A DNA stretch of 9,515 bases from a bacterium (GTDB lineage: Bacteria > Blakebacterota > Blakebacteria > Blakebacterales > Blakebacteraceae): contig JALGWK010000158.1 in the NCBI GenBank assembly GCA_025774205.1, positions 1-9,515 on the forward strand. Direction: 5' to 3'. The notes beneath the pieces were generated by a model. It worked only from the letters and a program-made list of their open reading frames with translations, was not told the DNA's origin and ran no database searches. Shown here in pieces: positions 1 through 9,457 of this stretch (its first letter is position 1; each line of letters opens with the position of its first letter). Both the position numbers and the translations under genes were made by a program.

Positions 1-488
1 GAGGCGCCATCCGGACTTCCGATCTGTTCGGCGACTGCCAGCTCCACGTCGAATACCGTCTGCCTGTTCCCCCCACGGGGGAGGGGCAGGGCAGGGGGAA
101 CAGCGGGATCTTCCTGCAGGACATCTACGAGGTGCAGGTCCTCGATTCGTTTGAGAATATCACCTATGCCGATGGCATGATGGGGGCCCTCTACGGTCAA
201 TACCCTCCGATGGTGAACGCCTGCCGGCCTCCCGGTGTCTGGCAGTCGCTTGACATCCTGTTCAGGCGTCCCCGGTTCGACGTCGAGGGGGGACTCCTTG
301 AGCCGGCGGTCTTCACGGTCTTCCATAACGGGGTGCTCATCCACGACCACGCCGAGCTGGTCGGGCCCACGGTCTGGCAGCGGCGCCCGCCGTACGAGGC
401 GCACGCCGACCGACTGCCGATATCGATCCAGGACCATGGTGATCCGATCCGGTTCAGGAATATATGGGTGAGGGACCTGGAGCACTGA
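1..488 (+). CDS. DUF1080 / 3-keto-disaccharide hydrolase domain protein, 5'-truncated
   Basis: This is the C-terminal part of a DUF1080 (3-keto-disaccharide hydrolase, concanavalin/LamG-like fold) protein. The reading frame is open from base 3, giving about 161 residues ending at TGA 486-488. The start lies before the window, so any signal peptide cannot be seen. Family hallmarks appear in order: QLHVEYR near the N-terminal edge, the GQGRGNSGIFLQ loop, YEVQVLDS, GALYGQYPP, the FHNGVLIHDH strand, and the closing QDHGDPIRFRNIWVR block, which in this family ends the domain. The protein therefore ends with its domain and is complete at this end. Members are usually secreted and cleave 3-keto-glycosides or bind carbohydrate in glycan degraders; the exact substrate cannot be read here. 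It converges on the histidine kinase gene with a 10-base gap and is not part of the minus-strand operon. A G-rich segment (77-98) lies inside the coding sequence. Confidence 0.9.
   Translation, partial: GAIRTSDLFGDCQLHVEYRLPVPPTGEGQGRGNSGIFLQDIYEVQVLDSFENITYADGMMGALYGQYPPMVNACRPPGVWQSLDILFRRPRFDVEGGLLEPAVFTVFHNGVLIHDHAELVGPTVWQRRPPYEAHADRLPISIQDHGDPIRFRNIWVRDLEH
64..103 (+). other. Inverted repeat with overlapping G-quadruplex motif inside the DUF1080 gene
   Basis: Bases 64-73 (CTGTTCCCCC) and 94-103 (GGGGGAACAG) are perfect 10-base reverse complements around a 20-base loop. A tighter alternative hairpin pairs 68-73 with 77-82 across a three-base loop. The same stretch carries G-runs of 5, 4, 3 and 5 (77-81, 83-86, 89-91, 94-98) separated by 1, 2 and 2 bases, matching the usual G-quadruplex pattern on the coding strand. 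It encodes the glycine-rich GQGRGNSG loop, so protein constraint explains part of the G-richness. A regulatory role is only possible. Confidence 0.5.
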
Positions 489-498
489 CGGAGCGGAA

Positions 499-2439
499 TT
501 ATAAATGTTTCTGCACGAGTGAGGTCAGGGCAGAGACCGTGAACGGTTTCTGGAGGAAGATCGAATCGGGCGAGAGCCCCTCCTGTTCGATGATCTCCTC
601 GCCGGGATACCCGGAAACGAAGATGGTCTTCAGGGGTATGCCCCTGTCGGCGATCCGGCTGGCGAGTTCCGCTCCCCCCATACCGGGCATAACCGCGTCG
701 GTGATCAACAGGTCGACCGCTTCCCGCTCCACGATCTCCAGAGCCGCCTGTCCGCTGGCGGCAGGGATCACGCGATACCCGATGGCCTCCAGGATGGTCG
801 TCATCATCTCCCTGATCTCCGCTTCGTCATCCACCACCAGGATGGTCCCGTCGGTGCTGCCGGTGGATGCGGTGTCCTCCTCGACTACGGGCAGCGGGGT
901 TGTTTCGGGCTGCTGCTCCGCGAACCAGATGCGGAAGGTCGTACCTCTTTCCGGTCCACTCGAGACCGACATCTCACCGCCGCTCTGCTTCACGTATCCG
1001 TAGACACCGGGAAGGATGTAGCCGCTTCCCCGGCCGACGTCACGGGTGGCCAGGCGCGGTTCGAAGATAAGAGGCAGATCCTCCGGAGAAATCGGCTCTC
1101 CGGTGTCGATCATGGAGAGCACCACGTATCGGCCGGGCTGGAGCATGAGACGCTCAGACGCGATCCGGTCAGCTTCGAGATCGACCGTTTCGATGATGAT
1201 GGAGAGGGTGCCGCCGGAGGGCATCGATTCACCGGCATTGATCGCCAGGTCGAGTATCACCCGCTCCATGTGCATGGGATCGACTTCGAGCCAGGCCGGA
1301 TCACCGGCGGGGGAGATGGATATCTCGATGTCTTCCCTCAGGGTCTGGCGAAGCAGTTTGTCCAGAGCGATGACAACCGTGTTCAGATCGAAGATCTTCG
1401 GCCGCAGCAGCTGCTGCCGACCGTATGAGGTCAGTTTCTCGATGAGGACCTTCGCCCTGCCGGCCGCTTCGGAAATCCGGCTGATGCGCTCGGCCTCTAT
1501 CGATCCCTCGGGGATCCCGCCGGTCAGGGTGAGTATCTCGGCGGTGCCGCTGATGATCATGAGAAGGTTGTTGAAGTCGTGGGCTACCGCCCCGGCCAAT
1601 CGGCCGGTCGATTCAAGCTGCCTGGCGTTGAAGAGCTGCTCCTCGAGCTGTCTCTTCTCCGTGATGTCCTCACCCGATGAGAGGGTGCCCGTGAACTCAC
1701 CCGCTTCATCCAGGTAGATGGTGTTGTACCATGAGATCAGCCGGATCTCTCCGCTGCCGGTCACAATCGGGTTCACATTATGACGGAACGATCCCCCCGG
1801 TTCCGAAGTCAGATCCCTGAACACCCTGGCAACATGATCCTTTTGATCCTCCGGGAGGAAGCTCTGGAACCAGTTTCGACCCAGGATCTCCTCCTCGGGG
1901 CAGCCGAGGATTTCACACCCCTTGTTGTTGATGAGCGTGATCGTTCCCGCGCGATCGAGGGCCAGCAGCATCACGCCGGCCGTATCGAGGTACCGCTGGG
2001 CGCGATCCCGGGCCTGGAGCAGTCTGGTCTCGGCCTCGATCCGCTCCCGGATATCGGTGTAGATGACGAGGATCATCCTGGAACCATCTGCCAACTCGAT
2101 CGGCAGGCCCCGCACCAGGACATCGATCAGGGTGCCGTCCCTGGCTTGTCGGACCGTTTCCCGGCCGATCTCGTCGCCCTGGAGGACGTTCTTCTTATGC
2201 CTCAGGAACTCGTCCCGCAGATGGTCGGGCACCACGAGTTCGATGCTCCGCCCCCTGATCTCTTCCTCGGTATAGCCCATGAGCCTGGTGAAGGCCCGGT
2301 TGACGCGGGTGATGTGGGCGTCACTGTCGAGGATGCAGATCGAGTCGGGGAATATCTCGAAGATGGGCAGGACGCTGGCCTCGAACTCGGACTTCGTGAG
2401 GGCAGGTGTACCCGGTTTTGATGCGAATTCGCTCATCAC
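499..2439 (-). CDS. PAS-PAS hybrid sensor histidine kinase with C-terminal receiver domain
   Basis: A soluble hybrid two-component kinase of 646 residues with no transmembrane segment. Domains in order: PAS 1 (about 21-135), PAS 2 (about 145-265), HisKA with the AHDFNNLL motif (phospho-accepting His287), HATPase_c (about 380-507) and a receiver (about 531-646). The receiver is intact: acidic pocket Asp537-Asp538, phospho-acceptor Asp581 in ITDAVMPG, Ser609 and Lys631. The ATPase domain keeps the N-box Asn401 and Asp445. However, the usual DTGCGM is DTGEPI (445-450), EPFFTT is EPRLAT, and the GTGLGL glycine box is GSGYIL (471-476), so ATP binding may be altered. The first codon is GTG (2437-2439), directly followed by ATG (2434-2436). 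GAGGTGA at 2450-2456 is the likely ribosome site and fits GTG slightly better. Signal and output partner are unknown. It is separated from the peptidase gene by 163 bases, which suggests its own expression. Confidence 0.93.
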   Translation of the reverse strand: MMSEFASKPGTPALTKSEFEASVLPIFEIFPDSICILDSDAHITRVNRAFTRLMGYTEEEIRGRSIELVVPDHLRDEFLRHKKNVLQGDEIGRETVRQARDGTLIDVLVRGLPIELADGSRMILVIYTDIRERIEAETRLLQARDRAQRYLDTAGVMLLALDRAGTITLINNKGCEILGCPEEEILGRNWFQSFLPEDQKDHVARVFRDLTSEPGGSFRHNVNPIVTGSGEIRLISWYNTIYLDEAGEFTGTLSSGEDITEKRQLEEQLFNARQLESTGRLAGAVAHDFNNLLMIISGTAEILTLTGGIPEGSIEAERISRISEAAGRAKVLIEKLTSYGRQQLLRPKIFDLNTVVIALDKLLRQTLREDIEISISPAGDPAWLEVDPMHMERVILDLAINAGESMPSGGTLSIIIETVDLEADRIASERLMLQPGRYVVLSMIDTGEPISPEDLPLIFEPRLATRDVGRGSGYILPGVYGYVKQSGGEMSVSSGPERGTTFRIWFAEQQPETTPLPVVEEDTASTGSTDGTILVVDDEAEIREMMTTILEAIGYRVIPAASGQAALEIVEREAVDLLITDAVMPGMGGAELASRIADRGIPLKTIFVSGYPGEEIIEQEGLSPDSIFLQKPFTVSALTSLVQKHL

Positions 2440-2476
2440 GGTGCTCTTCTCACCTCGATTCCTGCGGCTGCCCCCG

Positions 2477-2505
2477 AGTATATCTGATTAGCAATATGAT
2501 GAACA
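2477..2505 (-). promoter_or_regulatory. Possible sigma-70-type promoter for the histidine kinase gene
   Basis: On the minus strand TATACT (2477-2482) is a five-of-six match to a -10 box. It sits about 37 bases before the kinase GTG, in a locally AT-rich patch of an otherwise GC-rich region. A weak -35 candidate, TGTTCA (2500-2505), lies 17 bases upstream and matches TTGACA at only three positions. The call rests mainly on the -10 box and its placement. Confidence 0.3.
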
Positions 2506-2534
2506 GTGGTGCAGCCGGTGAGATGTGTGAGTCA

Positions 2535-2585
2535 ATCGATGCCGAAGTGCCCGGGGAATACCTCAATGAACACTTCGGCAGCGAT
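2535..2585 (-). terminator. Inverted repeat after the M28 peptidase gene (terminator-like, no T-run)
   Basis: TGCCGAAGTG (2540-2549) and CACTTCGGCA (2571-2580) form a perfect 10-base stem around a 21-base loop. After one mismatch (2539/2581), four further pairs (2535-2538 with 2582-2585) extend it to 14 of 15 paired. It begins about 18 bases past the peptidase stop and lies upstream of the candidate kinase promoter, a sensible place for a transcript end. No run of T follows on the minus strand, so an intrinsic terminator is not proven. It could instead be an mRNA-stabilising stem or a binding site for a dimeric regulator. Confidence 0.5.
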
Positions 2586-2602
2586 ATCGGTCCTGGTATG
2601 GA

Positions 2603-4180
2603 TCAGCCGCCGCCGCGGCGCCCCCGCTGAGTCACTTCGGGATCCCTGTCCAGTTTGACCATGGCCGGCATGTTTCCCAGTTCGATCGCGCTGGCATAGA
2701 CGAACTTGACCACCCGTGTCATCTTGTCGAAGTCGCACAGCGCGACCTCGTCGGCTGGCGTGTGCAGCTCGTCGTGGATATCGGAGAAGAAGAAGGTGGC
2801 CGGGATGCCATACCGGTGGAAGGCGAAGTGGTCGCTCTGCGAGTGGTAGTTCCGCTGCAGGGTTGGATCGTTGTACTTGTCGTCGATCTCGATGATTCCG
2901 AGCCGGTCGGCTACCCGGCGGTGGACGGCGTCCAGTTCCGAAGAGTAGAAATGGGAGCCGATCAGGCAGATGCTGGCCGGGTCGTTGCGCGAGATCATGT
3001 CCATCTGCAGCATGGCGTCGATCTGCTCCAGCGGCACCGGGGAGTGCTCCACGAAGTAGGACGCTCCCCGCAGTCCCTTCTCCTCCCCGGTCCACCAGCC
3101 AAGGATGATCGAGCGCTTCGGCCGGGTGATCTTCAGCGCCTGGGCGATCTCGAGCAGGGCCACCGTTCCCGAGCCGTCGTCATCCGCCCCGTTATTAATG
3201 CTGTCGGGGTAGGCTCCATGGCGGATGCCGACGTGGTCGTAGTGGCCACCGATGACGATGTATTCGTTCTTCAGCACCGGATCGGAACCCTCAAGGTACG
3301 CCACCACGTTCTGAGTGTGGTCCGACAGCCGGTCCATGACGACCGACACCTCCGCCCGCGTGCCTGGCAGAGCCCGTCCGGGGACCCGCTCACCCCTCCT
3401 GAGGGAAGCGAACATGGCGCTGATATCTGATTCACTCACCCCAAGCAGGGAGGCCGCCACGTGGTGCCTGACCTCGAACATGGTACCAGCGCTCCGGCGG
3501 CCGCCACCACGGCTCTCCGAACCGGGCCACTGCGTGCTCGAGGAGGATGAGAATCCGCTGCCTGACTCCACCATCTGGTTTTCACGCTGATCGTTCAGGA
3601 CGGAGATGACCGCCCGGGCGCCCTTCTGCAGCGGCAGGAACCAGTTCGACCTGAGCCGGTTCCGGGCCACAGGGAATTCCTCCGGCACCTCCGAGGGGGC
3701 CGCGAGGATGACGACCACCTTGTCGGTCAGATCGATCCCCGCGTAATCATCCCACCCGTGATCGGGCTGTTCCAGGCCGAGACCGACGAAGACCAGCTCA
3801 CCCGAGATGGTGCCTTCGCTCAAGCGCCCCCCGAAGTCATCGGGGAACCGGAAGGTTCTCTCTCCGACCGTCATCTTCGTCCCGCTGGTCGAGGGTGAGA
3901 CGGTCACCAGCGGGATCGTCTGCAGGAAGGAGCCATCGGGCAGGATCGGTTCCCAGCCGTAACTCTCCACCATTGTCGCCAGGTAGCGGGCGGCCAGCTT
4001 CAGCTGCGGCGAGGGGGTGTTCCGCCCCATCATCTCGTCGGAGGCGATGAAGGTCAGGTGGGTCCGGAGTTCCTCCGCGGTGATGGAGTCCATGGCACGG
4101 TTCTGTCCCAGAGCGGGCGCGGCTGACGAGCATAACATCACTACGAGGATCGGCAGGATGATCAGGCGGCGATGGTTCAT
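2603..4180 (-). CDS. Secreted M28-family zinc metallopeptidase with PA-type insert
   Basis: A 525-residue M28 aminopeptidase-like protein, numbered from ATG 4178-4180. An N-terminal signal peptide (MNHRR, hydrophobic core, cleavage probably after ALG near residue 25) predicts export. A protease-associated-type insert spans roughly residues 90-280. The di-zinc site is complete: His313 in GGHYDH, Asp334 in the ADDDGSG loop, Glu366-Glu367 in TGEEKG (general base and ligand), Asp394 in QMDM, and His473 in LHTPAD. The family removes N-terminal residues from peptides in the periplasm or outside the cell; specificity cannot be read. Oddities are a Ser/Gly-rich stretch (about 204-232, including five serines in a row) and a Gly/Arg tail (RGRRGGG). 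An in-frame ATG 12 bases upstream (4190-4192) exists, but the GAGGAG ribosome site lies between the two, favouring 4180. It follows the GH123 gene by 72 bases and is possibly co-transcribed. Confidence 0.93.
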   Translation of the reverse strand: MNHRRLIILPILVVMLCSSAAPALGQNRAMDSITAEELRTHLTFIASDEMMGRNTPSPQLKLAARYLATMVESYGWEPILPDGSFLQTIPLVTVSPSTSGTKMTVGERTFRFPDDFGGRLSEGTISGELVFVGLGLEQPDHGWDDYAGIDLTDKVVVILAAPSEVPEEFPVARNRLRSNWFLPLQKGARAVISVLNDQRENQMVESGSGFSSSSSTQWPGSESRGGGRRSAGTMFEVRHHVAASLLGVSESDISAMFASLRRGERVPGRALPGTRAEVSVVMDRLSDHTQNVVAYLEGSDPVLKNEYIVIGGHYDHVGIRHGAYPDSINNGADDDGSGTVALLEIAQALKITRPKRSIILGWWTGEEKGLRGASYFVEHSPVPLEQIDAMLQMDMISRNDPASICLIGSHFYSSELDAVHRRVADRLGIIEIDDKYNDPTLQRNYHSQSDHFAFHRYGIPATFFFSDIHDELHTPADEVALCDFDKMTRVVKFVYASAIELGNMPAMVKLDRDPEVTQRGRRGGG

Positions 4181-4184
4181 GATT

Positions 4185-4190
4185 CTCCTC
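4185..4190 (-). promoter_or_regulatory. Ribosome binding site that fixes the M28 peptidase start
   Basis: GAGGAG on the minus strand lies 4 bases before ATG 4178-4180 and overlaps the earlier in-frame ATG at 4190-4192. No purine-rich site precedes the earlier ATG. The downstream ATG is therefore the better start, and the signal peptide begins MNHRR. Confidence 0.7.
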
Positions 4191-4252
4191 ATCGGTTCAG
4201 GCTGTATTCGGTGAACGACTCCTGTTGATTACGTTCGCAATCCCTGTTTGGT

Positions 4253-5955
4253 TCATCGGTTATCCGGTCGAAGCCGGGAAAGATCGGTGATCGAACTCAT
4301 GACGATATTCACAAAGTACGACGCCTCCCGCTCTCGGGCTGCATCCCAGGTGACCTCGGCCAGAACCCGGTCAAGCTGGTCGATCTTTCGGAGCACTTCA
4401 CTGTCGGTGGTGCCCTCGAATCGCTCTCTCAGGATGTGTATCTGCTCGTAAGCCTCGATCCCGTCGCGGAGCATCTCGAATCGTATGGAGGAACGGGCCC
4501 CCGGGTAGACCAGGAAACAGTCGCCGGCCGACCAGGTGACATGCCCGGTGTCCATGAAGGGATCCTCGACCCACGAATCATACGCCCAGCGCAGGAAGCC
4601 GGTGTACCCCAGGGCGGCGGCATGAATGCCGAGCCAGGTAGATTCAGCCGGCGGGGAGTGGGTGAAGGTGTTTGGTCGTTCCGGATTGCAGCAGACGTAG
4701 AAGGTGGTCTGCGGATAGCGCTCATCAGCCTGCCGGCGTGCGTTCCGCTCCTCGATGAGGTCACTCGAGAGCGGCGACTGGATGGTAATGCACCAGTCGT
4801 CGATCAGGTCCTTCAGCTCGGGATGGTTGCCGCCGGCGAGGGCGATCTTCAGGGCGGGAGCCTCCCGGCGGATCAGTTCGATGGCAGGGAACATCTGGTC
4901 GGGCGGGCGTTCATCCATCGCCAGCACCACCCGGTCGAGCCATCCCTTCGCCGTTCTCCCGAGGCCTCGTCGAGGTAGTCGATCCGGTTCGTCCACGGCA
5001 CGACGGAGTAGCAGTTGATCGCTCCGTCGAAGCCGATTCCGGTGGCGAATTCGACGTAGCGGTCGAAGATCGAGAAGTCCCACCGCCAGGCGCCGTCCGC
5101 CCTGCGTATCCAGCCGACCATCGAATCGTAGGGATCGTAGGTCTGGGTGCCCCACGGCTGGTGGAGGATGGTCGTGGTGAGGACTTTCTGCCCGGCTTCC
5201 AGGAGCATGTTCAGGTGAGGTTCGAGGAGCGCGAAGTGTTCCGGTGACCAGAGTTCCACGTGATGGTAGCGGGCCACGGCGTACGGGTTCTGCCAGAGGT
5301 CGAGATGGAATTCCCATTCCGACGGTTCGGGGAGAACCTGGTCGAGGACCTCGACCTTGAAGGTGAAGGGGATGACTTCGCCCCCCTCGTCGCGCACGAA
5401 CACTGGTATCTGGTAGAAGGCCGGCTCGGCGTCGGCGGGAATGTCGATCCGGATCCAGACCGGACGGACGCTCCGGGCAGGGATATCGAGCCTGGTCGCG
5501 TGGTCGATGATGTCGGCGTAGAGACCTCCGTCACCGAGGGTGTAGCGGACGAACTCGGCTCTGAGGCACGATCGGGGGAGGGTGGATCCGCCCTTATCCG
5601 GGGGGCGGCCGATCTCCTCGAATCGATCGGGGACCTCGATCCGCACCTGGCCGACGTCCTCCGCGGTCCAGAGCACCAGCTGGGCGTTGATACGCTCACC
5701 CCGCCAGCCGCTGGTCCAGCCGATCATCCGGCTCCCGCCCCGGGGGACAAGGTTGCGGGGGTATCGATGATCGACCGATCCGATGGTTCCATGCAGACCT
5801 GGCCCGACCGTGTCCCAGGCCGCGGCCCGGGCAGCATCGAGTGGTTCCGGATCGGGCGGTTCGTAGAGCGGATTGGCTGTCCGCTGGGCCTCGGATCCGA
5901 TGGTGAGCGTGCTGAACACCGTGATGGTCAGCAGCAGTCTTGATACCACCTTCAT
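4253..5955 (-). pseudogene. GH123-like (DUF4091) glycoside hydrolase, frameshifted with a missing segment
   Basis: Two minus-strand frames encode successive halves of one GH123-type protein. The first runs from ATG 5953-5955: signal peptide MKVVSRLLLTITVF with cleavage probably after SEA (residue 23), then a beta-rich N-terminal domain, then barrel motifs such as LDLWQNPYAVARYHH, LWSPEHF and HQPWGTQTYDPYDSMV. It loses the family sequence just after DYLDEASGE near 4950-4965. The second frame resumes at KGWLDRVVLAMDERP, with the Asp-Glu pair expected to be catalytic at 4910-4915. It then runs through YVCCNPERPNTFTHSP and FLRWAYDSW to TGA 4253-4255. Relatives known to me have about 25 residues between these blocks that are absent here, so a deletion of 3n+1 bases fits better than one lost base. 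GH123 enzymes act on beta-linked N-acetylgalactosamine; many DUF4091 proteins are untested. The ATG overlaps the sulfatase TGA (ATGA). A sequencing or assembly error remains possible. Confidence 0.85.
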
Positions 5956-7469
5956 CGGGTTTCCCCGGGCGGTACGTAGTCGGGATTCGGTCGGGGCATC
6001 TTCGCGTCCACTTCGCGGCGCCAGTCGGCGAGCATCGACCTCAGCGCCGCCGCCCGTTCCGGCATCTCTCCGGCTAGGTTTCGCTCCTCGGATATGTCTT
6101 CCCTCAGATTGTACAGTTCGAGAGCACCGTCCTCGAACCATTCGATCAGCTTCCAGTCGCCGGCCCTGACCGCGCCGGCAGGCCGATTGCCTGAACCGTG
6201 GTAGTGGGGGGAATGCCAGAAGAGGGCTTCACGCCCGAGGTCACCACTCTCCTCCAGGAGGGGGACCAGCGAAAGCCCGTCCCGGTGCTGGGCGGGATTC
6301 TGCGCCAGCCCCGCCATGGCCAGCATGGTGGGGTAGAAGTCGGTGCTGGTGACCGGCTCACCGCAGACGCTTCCTTCCCGTACCCGTCCGGGCCAGCGGA
6401 TGATCATCGGTTCCCTGATACCACCCTCGTAATACCATCCCTTGCCGGCCCTGAGGGGGAGCACGGCGGTCGGGGCATTGGAGCTGCGAGCGAAGGTCGT
6501 CAGGCCGCCGTTGTCCGACATGAAGATGATGATCGTGTTCCTGTATTCACCGATTGCTTTGAGGGCCTCCATCACCCTGCCGACGCTTTCATCCACGCTC
6601 TGCACCATGCCGGCGTATGCCGGATCGTCCTGAACCAGGTTGGTGACGCCCCAGCCGTCGTGTTCGGTCCGGCTGGTCTCACCCTCCGGCGTCGGCATCG
6701 ATCCGATCTTCTCCCGGTACCGTTCGGTCAGGTCCGGTTTCGACTGAACGGGGGTATGGACGGCATAGTGGGCGAGGTAGAGAAGGAACGGTTGATCCCG
6801 GTTCGCCTCGATGAAGCTGACCGCCTCATCGGTCAGGCGGTCGGTCAGGTACTCACCCTCCTCGCCATCTTCGAGGTCGGGTACGTCCCAGTAAGCCTCG
6901 GCATCGGGATTCCGGCGATAGGGCCAGAAGTATGAGGATGGGTGTCCGGCGGCATGACCACCGATGTTCAGGTCGAAACCCTGATCCTCCGGATGGTAGC
7001 CCTCATCACCGAGATGCCACTTGCCGATGTAACCGGTCGCGTAACCCGCCTCCCCGAGTGCCTCGGCGATCGTGACCTCCGACAGGGGCAGCTGATGCTC
7101 GTATTCGGCCGGCAGGAGCATCCCCCTCTGTCCGCCGCCGATCCAGTCGGTAATGTTGATTCTGGCCGGGTACTTGCCGGTCATGATGCTCGCCCTGGTG
7201 GGGGAGCAGACCGCGCAGGCCGCGTAGGCATCGGTAAAGCGCATGCCTTCCGAAGCGAGCCGGTCGATGTTGGGCGTCTCGTAGAGGTCGCTGCCGTACG
7301 AACCGAGGTCGGTCCAGCCCATGTCGTCGATGAGGATGAAGACGAAGTTGGGTGCGCGCCGGGATGATCCGGCGCAGCCGGGGAGGGAGGTAAGGATGCC
7401 GGGGAGGGAAACCGCGGCGGCTCCCGTAGCGGCCTGTCTGAGAAATTTGCGTCTGCCTGTTCCAGCCAT
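5952..7469 (-). CDS. Type I formylglycine-dependent sulfatase with Tat/lipoprotein-like signal
   Basis: A 505-residue sulfatase of the alkaline-phosphatase superfamily, numbered from ATG 7467-7469. The signature CSPTR (Cys88 to Arg92, then ASIMTGKYPAR) marks Cys88 for conversion to formylglycine, the catalytic aldehyde hydrate that removes sulfate esters. Other active-site residues are present: metal-binding Asp48-Asp49 in LIDDMGW, Lys150 and His152 in GKWHLG, His238 in AVHTP, Asp319-Asn320 in SDNGG, and Lys343. The N-terminus has a twin-arginine motif (GRRKFLRQ, residues 5-12), a hydrophobic stretch and LPGC (Cys32), so Tat export and lipid anchoring are likely. The substrate, probably a sulfated glycan, is inferred from the adjacent GH123 gene. 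The start at 7469 is chosen over an in-frame GTG at 7499 because GGAGG sits 8 bases before it. The stop overlaps the next ATG by four bases, implying translational coupling. Confidence 0.95.
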   Translation of the reverse strand: MAGTGRRKFLRQAATGAAAVSLPGILTSLPGCAGSSRRAPNFVFILIDDMGWTDLGSYGSDLYETPNIDRLASEGMRFTDAYAACAVCSPTRASIMTGKYPARINITDWIGGGQRGMLLPAEYEHQLPLSEVTIAEALGEAGYATGYIGKWHLGDEGYHPEDQGFDLNIGGHAAGHPSSYFWPYRRNPDAEAYWDVPDLEDGEEGEYLTDRLTDEAVSFIEANRDQPFLLYLAHYAVHTPVQSKPDLTERYREKIGSMPTPEGETSRTEHDGWGVTNLVQDDPAYAGMVQSVDESVGRVMEALKAIGEYRNTIIIFMSDNGGLTTFARSSNAPTAVLPLRAGKGWYYEGGIREPMIIRWPGRVREGSVCGEPVTSTDFYPTMLAMAGLAQNPAQHRDGLSLVPLLEESGDLGREALFWHSPHYHGSGNRPAGAVRAGDWKLIEWFEDGALELYNLREDISEERNLAGEMPERAAALRSMLADWRREVDAKMPRPNPDYVPPGETR

Positions 7470-7477
7470 CCGGTCCG

Positions 7478-7482
7478 CCTCC
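7478..7482 (-). promoter_or_regulatory. Ribosome binding site that fixes the sulfatase start
   Basis: GGAGG on the minus strand lies 8 bases before ATG 7467-7469. It falls inside the 10-codon extension that would be read from GTG 7497-7499. This supports the shorter protein, which also places the twin-arginine motif close to the N-terminus as expected for a Tat signal. Confidence 0.7.
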
Positions 7483-7510
7483 GGTTGAGGGTGGGACACA
7501 ATGGTACAGG

Positions 7511-8392
7511 TCAGAAGTCGTAGCTGGCCATACCGATGGTGATGCCCGAACCGACCGTGAGAAAGACCGCCCGGGTACCCGCTTCGATCAGGCCTGCCTC
7601 CCGGGCGTAATGCAGGGCGAGAATCGGTGAGGTGGTCAGCGTATCGCCGTAGAGAGAGAAGACGTCCACGACCTTCTCGGGCGCCAATCCGAGGGCATCC
7701 GGTAAGCCCGCGATGAAGCCGGCCGATGGCTGTGACGGGATGACCAGATCTATCCCGTCCCGGTCGGTCTTCTCGCTCTCCAGCAGTTCATCCCACACAT
7801 CCGGGAGGAGTGAGAGGCAGGTCCGGTCGAGGTCTTCATCCCGGTGGATATGGAGCTGGCCCCTCTCAACGGTGAGCGTCACGGCTGAGCGTGAGAGATC
7901 GTGATGCTGGTCAAAGGTCCTGAACAGGAAGGCGCCGAAGCCGCGGTCCGGGGTGGGGGAGAGGTCGAGCATGATGGCCGCGCCGCTGGCCGTGATGGCT
8001 GAATCGGGATCGGGAATCTTGTCGGTGTTCACTTCGCTGGCGATGGCCAGGCCGGTCCGGATCGCTCCGCTCTGCATCATGGTGGTCAGCACGTGCAGGG
8101 CATTGAGCATGCCGCAGTTGCCGTTCAACAGGTCGAAGGAGGCCGTCTGCCGGCGCTGGAATTCGACGTTGATGCCCAGCTTGTTCTGGATGTAGACGGC
8201 GAAGGCCGGTTCGGCATAGTGGCGGTCGCGGTGAACCCCGGCATTGATGAGTATCTCCACGTCGACCGGGAGGTACTGTGAGGAGCCGAGGCAGCTGGAA
8301 CCGGCTTTGGCGGCTAAGCCGAGTGAACCCGGTTTCCAGGGGCCGTTACGGGGCAGGCTGACTCCGACGCTCTCTATCCGGCTGCGCAGCAT
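7511..8392 (-). CDS. FabH-like thiolase-fold protein with altered catalytic triad (probable non-catalytic ketosynthase partner)
   Basis: A 293-residue relative of ketoacyl-ACP synthase III, encoded 3 bases after the intact paralogue. It shares the opening RIES(L/V)G(I/V) and aligns around FDLLNGNCGMLNAL, IPSQPSAGF, SLYGDTLTTS and the C-terminal GSGITIGMASY. At the three catalytic positions it differs: Asn92 replaces the nucleophilic Cys (Cys93 is one residue later), Ser220 replaces the His of HQA, and Asp250 replaces the Asn of YGN. The N-terminal region before the active site is about 28 residues shorter and lacks the TGIRERR block that in FabH lies near the acyl/CoA entrance. It cannot work by the normal Claisen mechanism. 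By analogy with PqsB in PqsBC, or with chain-length factors, it probably pairs with the upstream enzyme; this is inference. The frame is clean and unbroken, so it is not a decaying copy. ATG 8390-8392 follows a G-run 8 bases upstream. Confidence 0.85.
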   Translation of the reverse strand: MLRSRIESVGVSLPRNGPWKPGSLGLAAKAGSSCLGSSQYLPVDVEILINAGVHRDRHYAEPAFAVYIQNKLGINVEFQRRQTASFDLLNGNCGMLNALHVLTTMMQSGAIRTGLAIASEVNTDKIPDPDSAITASGAAIMLDLSPTPDRGFGAFLFRTFDQHHDLSRSAVTLTVERGQLHIHRDEDLDRTCLSLLPDVWDELLESEKTDRDGIDLVIPSQPSAGFIAGLPDALGLAPEKVVDVFSLYGDTLTTSPILALHYAREAGLIEAGTRAVFLTVGSGITIGMASYDF

Positions 8393-8395
8393 CTT

Positions 8396-9457
8396 CTATT
8401 CCCCCCCGCCGTGATGATGGCGGTACCGTTCGGCCAGATCATCCATGGTATAGGTGGCATGGGTGATCACGATGCCGGAGGCGCCGCTGACGAAGAGGAT
8501 CCGGTGATCGTGGTCGATCGTCCCGTTCCTCATGAATTCATCGAGTACGACGAAATGACTCGTGGTGGTGGTATTGCCGTAGACATCGCAGTTGTAAAGG
8601 TATTCGTGAGGCACTTCTTCACCGATGAACTTCGCGACCTCCTTCACACCCCGTTTCACCACCCGTACCGAGGCCTGATGCGCGATGCCGTAGTCCACAT
8701 CAGCGAGACTCCAGCCGGTCCGTTCGACGGCCTTCTTCAGGTACTGGGGAAAGTGCTCGGCGCCCTTCCGCTGCAGGCCGATCGCATTCGTGATCAGGAT
8801 GCCGCCGGGACCGCGCTGGGAAGGGGTCGAGTAGCAGTACTGGTTGTGCTTCGCGCCGGTCACCATCTCGAGGTAGTGGAATCCGTACCGGTCATCGTCG
8901 TTCCGGTCGAGGATCACCGCCGCGCCGGCGTCACCCAGGGTGAGCGCAGCCAGCTGTCCGTCAAAGGTGTGCCGGATCTCCCGGGTCGCCGTCTCGGCCA
9001 GGGGCCAGTTGTACTCACCGCTCACCACCATGCCGCACTTGATGACGCCTGCTCGAAGGAAACTCTCCAGTATCAGGATGCCGTTGAACATGCCCGCACA
9101 GGCGTTGACGACGTCGAAATTGAGGGCGTTCGAGGCGCCGACAGCTCTTCTGATGGCGACACTGGTCGCCGGGTCGAAATCGACTTCCTGCTCACGGTTG
9201 TATTTCGAGATGCTGGTGCAGATGATCAGGCCGAGATCTTCGGCGCTGTAACGCGATAGTTCGAGGGCCCGTTCGGCCGCTCTGACGCCGAGGTCGACCG
9301 CGTATTCCCCCTCGGCCACCCTCCGCTCCCTGATGCCGGTGATGCGCTCAAGGTCGAGACGGGGCCGACGTCGACAGCGGTCGAGCAGGTCACTGGTGGT
9401 TAGTTTCGCAGGCGGCAGATAGATGCCGAGGCTCTCGATCCTGGCGTTTCCCGTCAT
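8396..9457 (-). CDS. FabH-like 3-oxoacyl-ACP synthase III family protein (catalytically intact)
   Basis: A 353-residue thiolase-fold condensing enzyme; FabH is usually about 320. The triad is complete: Cys120 in NACAGM, His260 in AHQAS, Asn295 in YGNTTTTS. The N-terminal half has the family block ITGIRERRVAEGEYAVDLG, and GDAGAAVIL (about 175-183) matches the conserved core. Such enzymes load an acyl group on Cys and condense it, usually with malonyl-ACP. The primer and product cannot be told, and a role outside primary fatty-acid synthesis is likely given the neighbours. The tail DLAERYRHHHGGGE is an extension beyond the fold. ATG 9455-9457 overlaps the stop of an upstream frame (ATGA). GGAGG lies 12 bases before the start, which is rather far, so coupling may help initiation. 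The paralogous altered-triad gene follows after 3 bases. OleA-like or other FabH-like secondary-metabolite enzymes are alternatives within the superfamily. Confidence 0.93.
   Translation of the reverse strand: MTGNARIESLGIYLPPAKLTTSDLLDRCRRRPRLDLERITGIRERRVAEGEYAVDLGVRAAERALELSRYSAEDLGLIICTSISKYNREQEVDFDPATSVAIRRAVGASNALNFDVVNACAGMFNGILILESFLRAGVIKCGMVVSGEYNWPLAETATREIRHTFDGQLAALTLGDAGAAVILDRNDDDRYGFHYLEMVTGAKHNQYCYSTPSQRGPGGILITNAIGLQRKGAEHFPQYLKKAVERTGWSLADVDYGIAHQASVRVVKRGVKEVAKFIGEEVPHEYLYNCDVYGNTTTTSHFVVLDEFMRNGTIDHDHRILFVSGASGIVITHATYTMDDLAERYRHHHGGGE

Follow-up and report, generated by a model that had tools for sequence, protein, structure and literature searches.

The window analysed here, a stretch of 9,515 nucleotides, is the whole of one contig (C436) from a draft genome whose 527 contigs add up to 3.09 Mb, with 85.9% completeness and 4.8% contamination, and carries two co-directional ketosynthase-like genes on its minus strand. 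The first to be transcribed, KS1 (8396..9457, minus), starts 58 bp from the contig end and encodes a protein of 353 aa with matches to the KAS III/FabH models PF08541 (2e-11) and PF08545 (2e-7). The second, KS2 (7511..8392, minus), encodes 293 aa and matches PF08541 (2e-14); in Pfam, both proteins match only these ACP_syn_III/ACP_syn_III_C (KAS III) models. The genes are separated by a 3-bp spacer (8393..8395, minus) with the junction GAA TAG AAG ATG, KS2 being in frame with KS1, and their products share about 25% identity. Comparison with the sister species gave a dN of 0.099 and a dS of 0.84 for KS1, and a dN of 0.149 and a dS of 0.93 for KS2; both genes are thus under purifying selection and neither is decaying. 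The open reading frames and the junction bear out the sequence-only reading of this DNA, which had described two paralogous FabH-like genes 3 bp apart, the second with an intact frame. Because dN is low relative to dS, and because the tandem pair recurs across phyla, its presence reflects neither chance nor decay.

Alignment with homologues identifies a Cys-His-Asn triad in KS1, comprising the acyl-Cys nucleophile Cys120 (codon 9098..9100, minus), His260 (8678..8680, minus) and Asn295 (8573..8575, minus), and the triad is complete in 24/24 KS1 sequences. Opposite these residues KS2 has Asn92 (8117..8119, minus), Ser220 (7733..7735, minus) and Asp250 (7643..7645, minus), an asymmetry already noted from the sequence alone and upheld by the alignment. 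None of the 26 KS2 sequences has the full triad, or Cys, His or Asn at the respective position, the Cys position being occupied by G, A, S, T, P or N or deleted. KS2 is also without an N-terminal segment of ~35 residues that in KS1 bears the TGI.ERR motif (as TGIRERR); in FabH, a TGIRERR-type N-terminal stretch contributes to CoA binding. By contrast with the lost triad, a Glu-Pro motif beginning at Glu61 (8210..8212, minus; the position of OleA Glu117) is kept in 26/26 KS2 sequences, some of them as distant as 25–30% identity. The sequence-only reading had overlooked both the absent segment and this invariant motif. The equivalent position in KS1, Asp95 (9173..9175, minus), is Glu in 22/24 KS1 sequences, Asp in the window only, and Ala in one further locus (L119).

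An AlphaFold2 (AF2) model of KS2 shows, with fair confidence, the full KAS III fold (pLDDT 80.6, pTM 0.85), and a fold search with it (VIA) returned PqsD, FabH and OleA, all at Z scores of 30.6–33.3, too close to rank. KS1 and KS2 read through the stop codon as one chain of 648 aa, modelled by AF2 from an 8-row alignment, gave a poor model (pLDDT of 57, pTM of 0.49) that is uninformative as to the interface.

The sister species (G001, locus L027) has the gene order threonine synthase, KS1, KS2, sulfatase, M28 peptidase and histidine kinase, and the sulfatase adjoins the pair in both species of the genus. In the window, the sulfatase (5952–7499) starts 11 bp after KS2 and has a putative twin-arginine lipoprotein signal and a CSPTRAS motif. 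The window also has a GH123 gene (4253–6141) that is not found at the corresponding place in the sister locus and is split over two frames, 4873–6141 covering profile positions 1–120 and 4253–5317 covering 148–324, the result of a frameshift or an assembly error. The M28 peptidase is intact in the window (2603–4192) and lies in two overlapping frames in the sister species (L027:13189–14779). In a cross-locus comparison, sulfatase and GH123 neighbours were absent from all homologous loci of other lineages, and because they are not kept there we take them as a genus-level neighbourhood, not as evidence of shared function. The coupling to a sulfatase/glycosidase cassette that had been read from the window was accordingly rejected.

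A scan of genome contigs for KS1 recovered the pair from the sister species, two Fidelibacterota (Neomarinimicrobiota), one Aminicenantes and one Myxococcaceae genome, with KS2 immediately downstream of KS1 in every case, and tblastn searches of plasmids located it on actinobacterial plasmids (Streptomyces and Rhodococcus). Profile searches for KS2 found it in 2/245 genomes in the phylum of L028, 7/396 in the phylum of L030 and 9/195 in the phylum of L031. A KS1 profile search of 591 genomes identified 6 genomes in the L030 phylum set and 8 in the L031 phylum set; KS2 adjoins KS1 in all 14, and no KS1 without KS2 was seen among the 591. The sequence-only reading had held that KS2 homologues routinely found without KS1 would speak against an obligate pair. 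Only two KS2s occur without a full KS1, both at contig ends: one contig (G665) starts inside KS2, and the other (G888) keeps a KS1 remnant of 100 aa. Across about 840 genomes from three phyla (591 of them searched with the KS1 profile), neither subunit was found without its partner except at contig ends. Other KAS III matches are far weaker (about 1e-20 to 1e-29), and those included in the tree group with FabH. Wherever a homologous locus is not truncated by the end of its contig, the two genes are adjacent and in the same direction, or fused.

To place the pair among related enzymes, a tree of 70 rows was built from KS1s, KS2s, FabH and OleA. The KS1s form one clade (K1, support 99/95) and the KS2s another (K2, 100/100), with FabH and OleA on a third side. 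The KS1s and the KS2s show the same internal division: one group comprises all plasmid pairs (lipstatin-type and Rhodococcus) plus three or four divergent pairs, and the other the window pair together with those of Fidelibacterota, Aminicenantes and Myxococcota; the long branches L112_K2 and L119_K2 are of uncertain placement. KS1 and KS2 distances are strongly correlated (Mantel r of 0.96 over 24 loci, and of 0.86 within the 15 loci of the window's clade, p 1e-4). Pairs from different host phyla are intermixed in the tree, so the pair has likely been transferred horizontally as a unit.

Two natural fusions of KS1 to KS2 arose independently. The first (L117:2950–4998, genome G714) is a single chain of 682 aa with an Ala/Pro-rich linker, encoded downstream of FadD and OleD-like genes. 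The second (L112:4693–10002, genome G463) is an ORF of 1769 aa with the layout C-A-PCP-KS1-KS2, in which NRPS condensation, adenylation and PCP domains precede the pair; we know of no description of a megasynthase with this layout. The ORF lies on a 5.1-Mb contig, with another very long ORF (3–4709) ahead of it. The fusions lend indirect support to a physical complex of KS1 and KS2, and offer single-chain versions of the pair for structural work on LstAB-type enzymes. Together with the adjacency in 14/14 genomes, they support the asymmetric, obligate pair that had been proposed from the window.

On three Streptomyces plasmids and one Rhodococcus plasmid, KS1 and KS2 are followed by genes for an OleC-like ligase, an NAD-dependent reductase, an NRPS and a formyltransferase; the ligase of L102 scores above the PRK09274 cut-off. 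We take this order, KS1-KS2-OleC-OleD-NRPS-formyltransferase, to be the operon layout for lipstatin, an anti-obesity drug precursor. The Streptomyces plasmid pairs were used in the alignment and tree as stand-ins for the sequences of LstA and LstB from Streptomyces toxytricini, which are KAS III-like, encoded side by side, share 23% identity and form a heterodimer in lipstatin biosynthesis (Zhang 2019, reviewed in PMC12141560). Neither is soluble by itself, whereas their complex is, LstB counterparts are always found clustered with LstA, and as of a 2025 review the enzyme was without an experimental structure (PMC12141560). C128 and H271 of LstA are needed for activity and N305 for a soluble complex, while the LstB variant E60A is soluble but inactive (PMC12141560). 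In the S. globosus pair (L106), the residues aligned with KS1 Cys120, His260 and Asn295 and with KS2 Glu61 are numbered C128, H271, N305 and E60, identical to LstA/LstB, so that the correspondence holds at the level of residues.

Each subunit of the window pair groups in the tree with its lst-layout counterpart, not with FabH or OleA. The likeness to LstA/LstB extends to the adjacent large subunit with a triad and small subunit without one, the Glu in the small subunit, an identity between subunits of about 23–27%, and membership of both monophyletic groups alongside the lst-layout Streptomyces pairs. Unlike the lst systems, the window has no OleC, NRPS or formyltransferase gene near the pair, and its KS1 has Asp at a position that is Glu in nearly all others; none of the lst beta-lactone genes (OleC-like, OleD-like, NRPS, formyltransferase) was found in the window or in the sister locus. 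Identity to the lipstatin-type pairs is about 36% for KS1 and 27% for KS2, so substrate and product may differ. We consider it likely, with good confidence, that KS1 is the large subunit and KS2 the small subunit of a single LstA/LstB-type (OleA-like) KAS III enzyme, which judging from the sequences is probably heterodimeric. The pair is a distant member of the LstAB kind in a new lineage and gene context, and no new kind of system. The pair had previously seemed assignable to no known pathway, a view that gives way to this assignment and not to PqsBC or to a ketosynthase/chain-length-factor pair. With it, the LstAB kind reaches beyond actinobacteria into several phyla that have few or no cultured members, and into gene contexts without a beta-lactone synthetase.

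Ketosynthase/chain-length-factor pairs of type II PKS, which resemble the window pair in the principle of joining an active to an inactive ketosynthase, belong to the KAS I/II branch. They were rejected as an identification on the grounds that both window proteins match only KAS III models. A closer comparison is offered by OleA of Xanthomonas campestris, a homodimeric thiolase from pathways to head-to-head olefins and beta-lactones, in which the Glu of one subunit is the base in the active site of the partner subunit (PMC7064751). The Glu-Pro motif is present in true OleA (L149; 4e-105 to Xanthomonas OleA), and is missing from the four FabHs in the comparison, where Leu, Phe or Met precedes the Pro. 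The window pair has in common with OleA the Glu-Pro motif and the Cys-His-Asn triad, and would also share a predicted non-decarboxylative Claisen condensation and a base supplied by the partner subunit. It is unlike OleA in being encoded by two genes instead of one, in having a small subunit without an active site of its own, and in being well separated in the tree from the true OleA of G860. An OleA homodimer, in which a single polypeptide has both the triad and Glu117-Pro, was rejected because KS1 has Asp95 and KS2 is without the triad.

By analogy with these enzymes, KS1 most likely carries the acyl-Cys and KS2 provides a base across the interface, so that two acyl-CoAs are joined head-to-head without decarboxylation. 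Cys120 of KS1 would accept a fatty acyl group from acyl-CoA, aided by His260 and Asn295, as in characterised homologues. KS2, with no chemistry of its own when alone, would complete a FabH-type dimer by packing on KS1, and would project Glu61 into the KS1 active site, where it would strip the alpha-proton of the acyl-Cys intermediate (or attack an enoyl one). The resulting enolate would condense with a second acyl-CoA to yield a 2-alkyl-3-keto acid; we infer the dimer, this chemistry and the chain lengths involved. In such a heterodimer only the Glu of KS2 meets a live active site, and the KS1 Glu should therefore be dispensable. Its loss in two KS1s (Asp in the window, Ala in L119) fits this expectation and is suggestive, the difference (2/24 KS1s vs 0/26 KS2s) being not significant. 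Because most KS1s keep their own Glu, this position is by itself no proof of a division of labour.

In PqsBC of the Pseudomonas quinolone signal, another asymmetric FabH-like pair with one subunit lacking the triad, PqsB has none of the three triad residues and is regarded as a scaffold, and PqsC is without the catalytic Asn (PMC4807248). KS2, having lost both the triad and the N-terminal TGI.ERR segment, could likewise be a purely structural partner that shapes the KS1 pocket and has no catalytic residue. We consider this unlikely, as Glu61-Pro is conserved throughout the KS2s, LstB E60 is essential while the complex stays soluble (PMC12141560), and KS1 keeps the Asn that PqsC is without. The same two features, Asn295 in KS1 and the invariant Glu61 in KS2, set the pair apart from PqsB, which has no catalytic residue, and from PqsC, and led us to reject an identification as PqsBC; no pqs-like genes were found near the KS pair. 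Since Glu61 is invariant and its LstB counterpart essential, KS2 is not simply non-catalytic: the earlier description of it as such holds for the missing triad and not for the retained Glu. A case of a dead enzyme beside a live one thereby becomes a testable assignment, in which Glu61 should be the sole catalytic residue of KS2.

Two further readings leave KS2 with a smaller part or change the reaction. KS1 has the full triad, and most of its homologues have Glu at the OleA Glu117 position, as would be expected if it worked alone as an OleA-like homodimer, here through its own Asp95, with KS2 as an accessory or regulatory paralogue. This is very unlikely, given that the residue has become Asp in the window and Ala in L119, that KS1 never occurs without KS2 in the genomes searched, that the two are fused and have mirrored trees, and that LstA by itself is insoluble (PMC12141560). 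Priming of fatty acid synthesis by decarboxylative condensation with malonyl-ACP, as in ordinary FabH-type initiation, would be in line with the finding that the best solved-structure matches by sequence are FabHs. It is highly improbable nonetheless: the tree sets K1 apart from FabH, the FabHs compared do not have the Glu-Pro of OleA, and the same genome encodes further KAS III homologues (on C342 and C142).

The genes accompanying the LstA/LstB-type pair differ among lineages. A FadD-type acyl-CoA ligase, an OleD-like reductase, KS1 and KS2 occur in this order in six loci of the window's clade (L107, L108, L109, L111, L116 and L117), of which L109 and L111 are close relatives, while L030 has the reductase beside the pair and no ligase. 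By profile, the two operon ligases that were scanned belong to the long-chain-fatty-acid-CoA ligases (about 490–500 bits, below the curated cut-off) and not to OleC, and the one operon reductase scanned scores 207 bits against the OleD model (cut-off 580), making it OleD-like, not a certified OleD. The pair stands bare in the window genus and in L028, L029, L114 and L115. Profile searches found no OleC above cut-off in the two genomes of the window genus (G000 and G001); one of 10 pair-bearing genomes, G860, has such an OleC, in a separate ole-type cluster with true OleA. An OleD was also rejected for the window genus, where the SDR matches are weak (1.6e-45 in G001 and 2.6e-23 in G000, vs about 1e-59 for operon-linked OleD-like proteins) and at best 36% identical to the L030 OleD-like protein, and the two Fidelibacterota genomes have no OleD match better than 1e-20; these being draft genomes, missing genes may reflect missing sequence.

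The beta-keto acid product of OleA decarboxylates spontaneously to a ketone (PMC7064751), and ketones are therefore predicted where there is no reductase, and 2-alkyl-3-hydroxy acids where there is one. Pairs with an adjoining OleD-like reductase and FadD likely make a mycolate-like 2-alkyl-3-hydroxy acid, and in bare-pair lineages such as the window genus the keto acid may lose its carboxyl group to give a long-chain ketone, or an unlinked enzyme may reduce it. Head-to-head lipids of these sorts (ketones or mycolate-like acids) are thus predicted in Fidelibacterota, Aminicenantes and Myxococcota. We tentatively suggest, as a possibility about which we have some doubt, a separate LstAB-type clade that spread horizontally among uncultured bacteria and makes lipids other than beta-lactones: hydroxy acids with FadD and OleD-like enzymes, and ketones as a bare pair, with a more distant relative built into an NRPS. 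The hosts of this clade are the window's phylum, Fidelibacterota, Aminicenantes and other genomes of the phylum of Aminicenantes, and Myxococcota.

Several loci have further neighbours. Two ArsA-type ATPase genes lie beside the pair in Myxococcota loci, upstream in L115 (5782–8162) and downstream in L117 (5012–7137), and ORFs related to ArsA-type ATPases lie upstream of the pair in L113. The Rhodococcus plasmids pDK1 and pRWAY01 (L101 and L104) have bare pairs with overlapping genes, located among universal stress, CBS, Hsp20 or flavodoxin-domain genes. Two wax ester/triacylglycerol synthase genes flank the L104 pair, a hint of a role in storage lipids during stress. In both Fidelibacterota loci, KS2 is immediately followed by an ORF of 145–148 aa (L028:11986–12423 and L029:11948–12394), apparently of membrane type and with no match in Pfam, which is a candidate partner of the bare pair.
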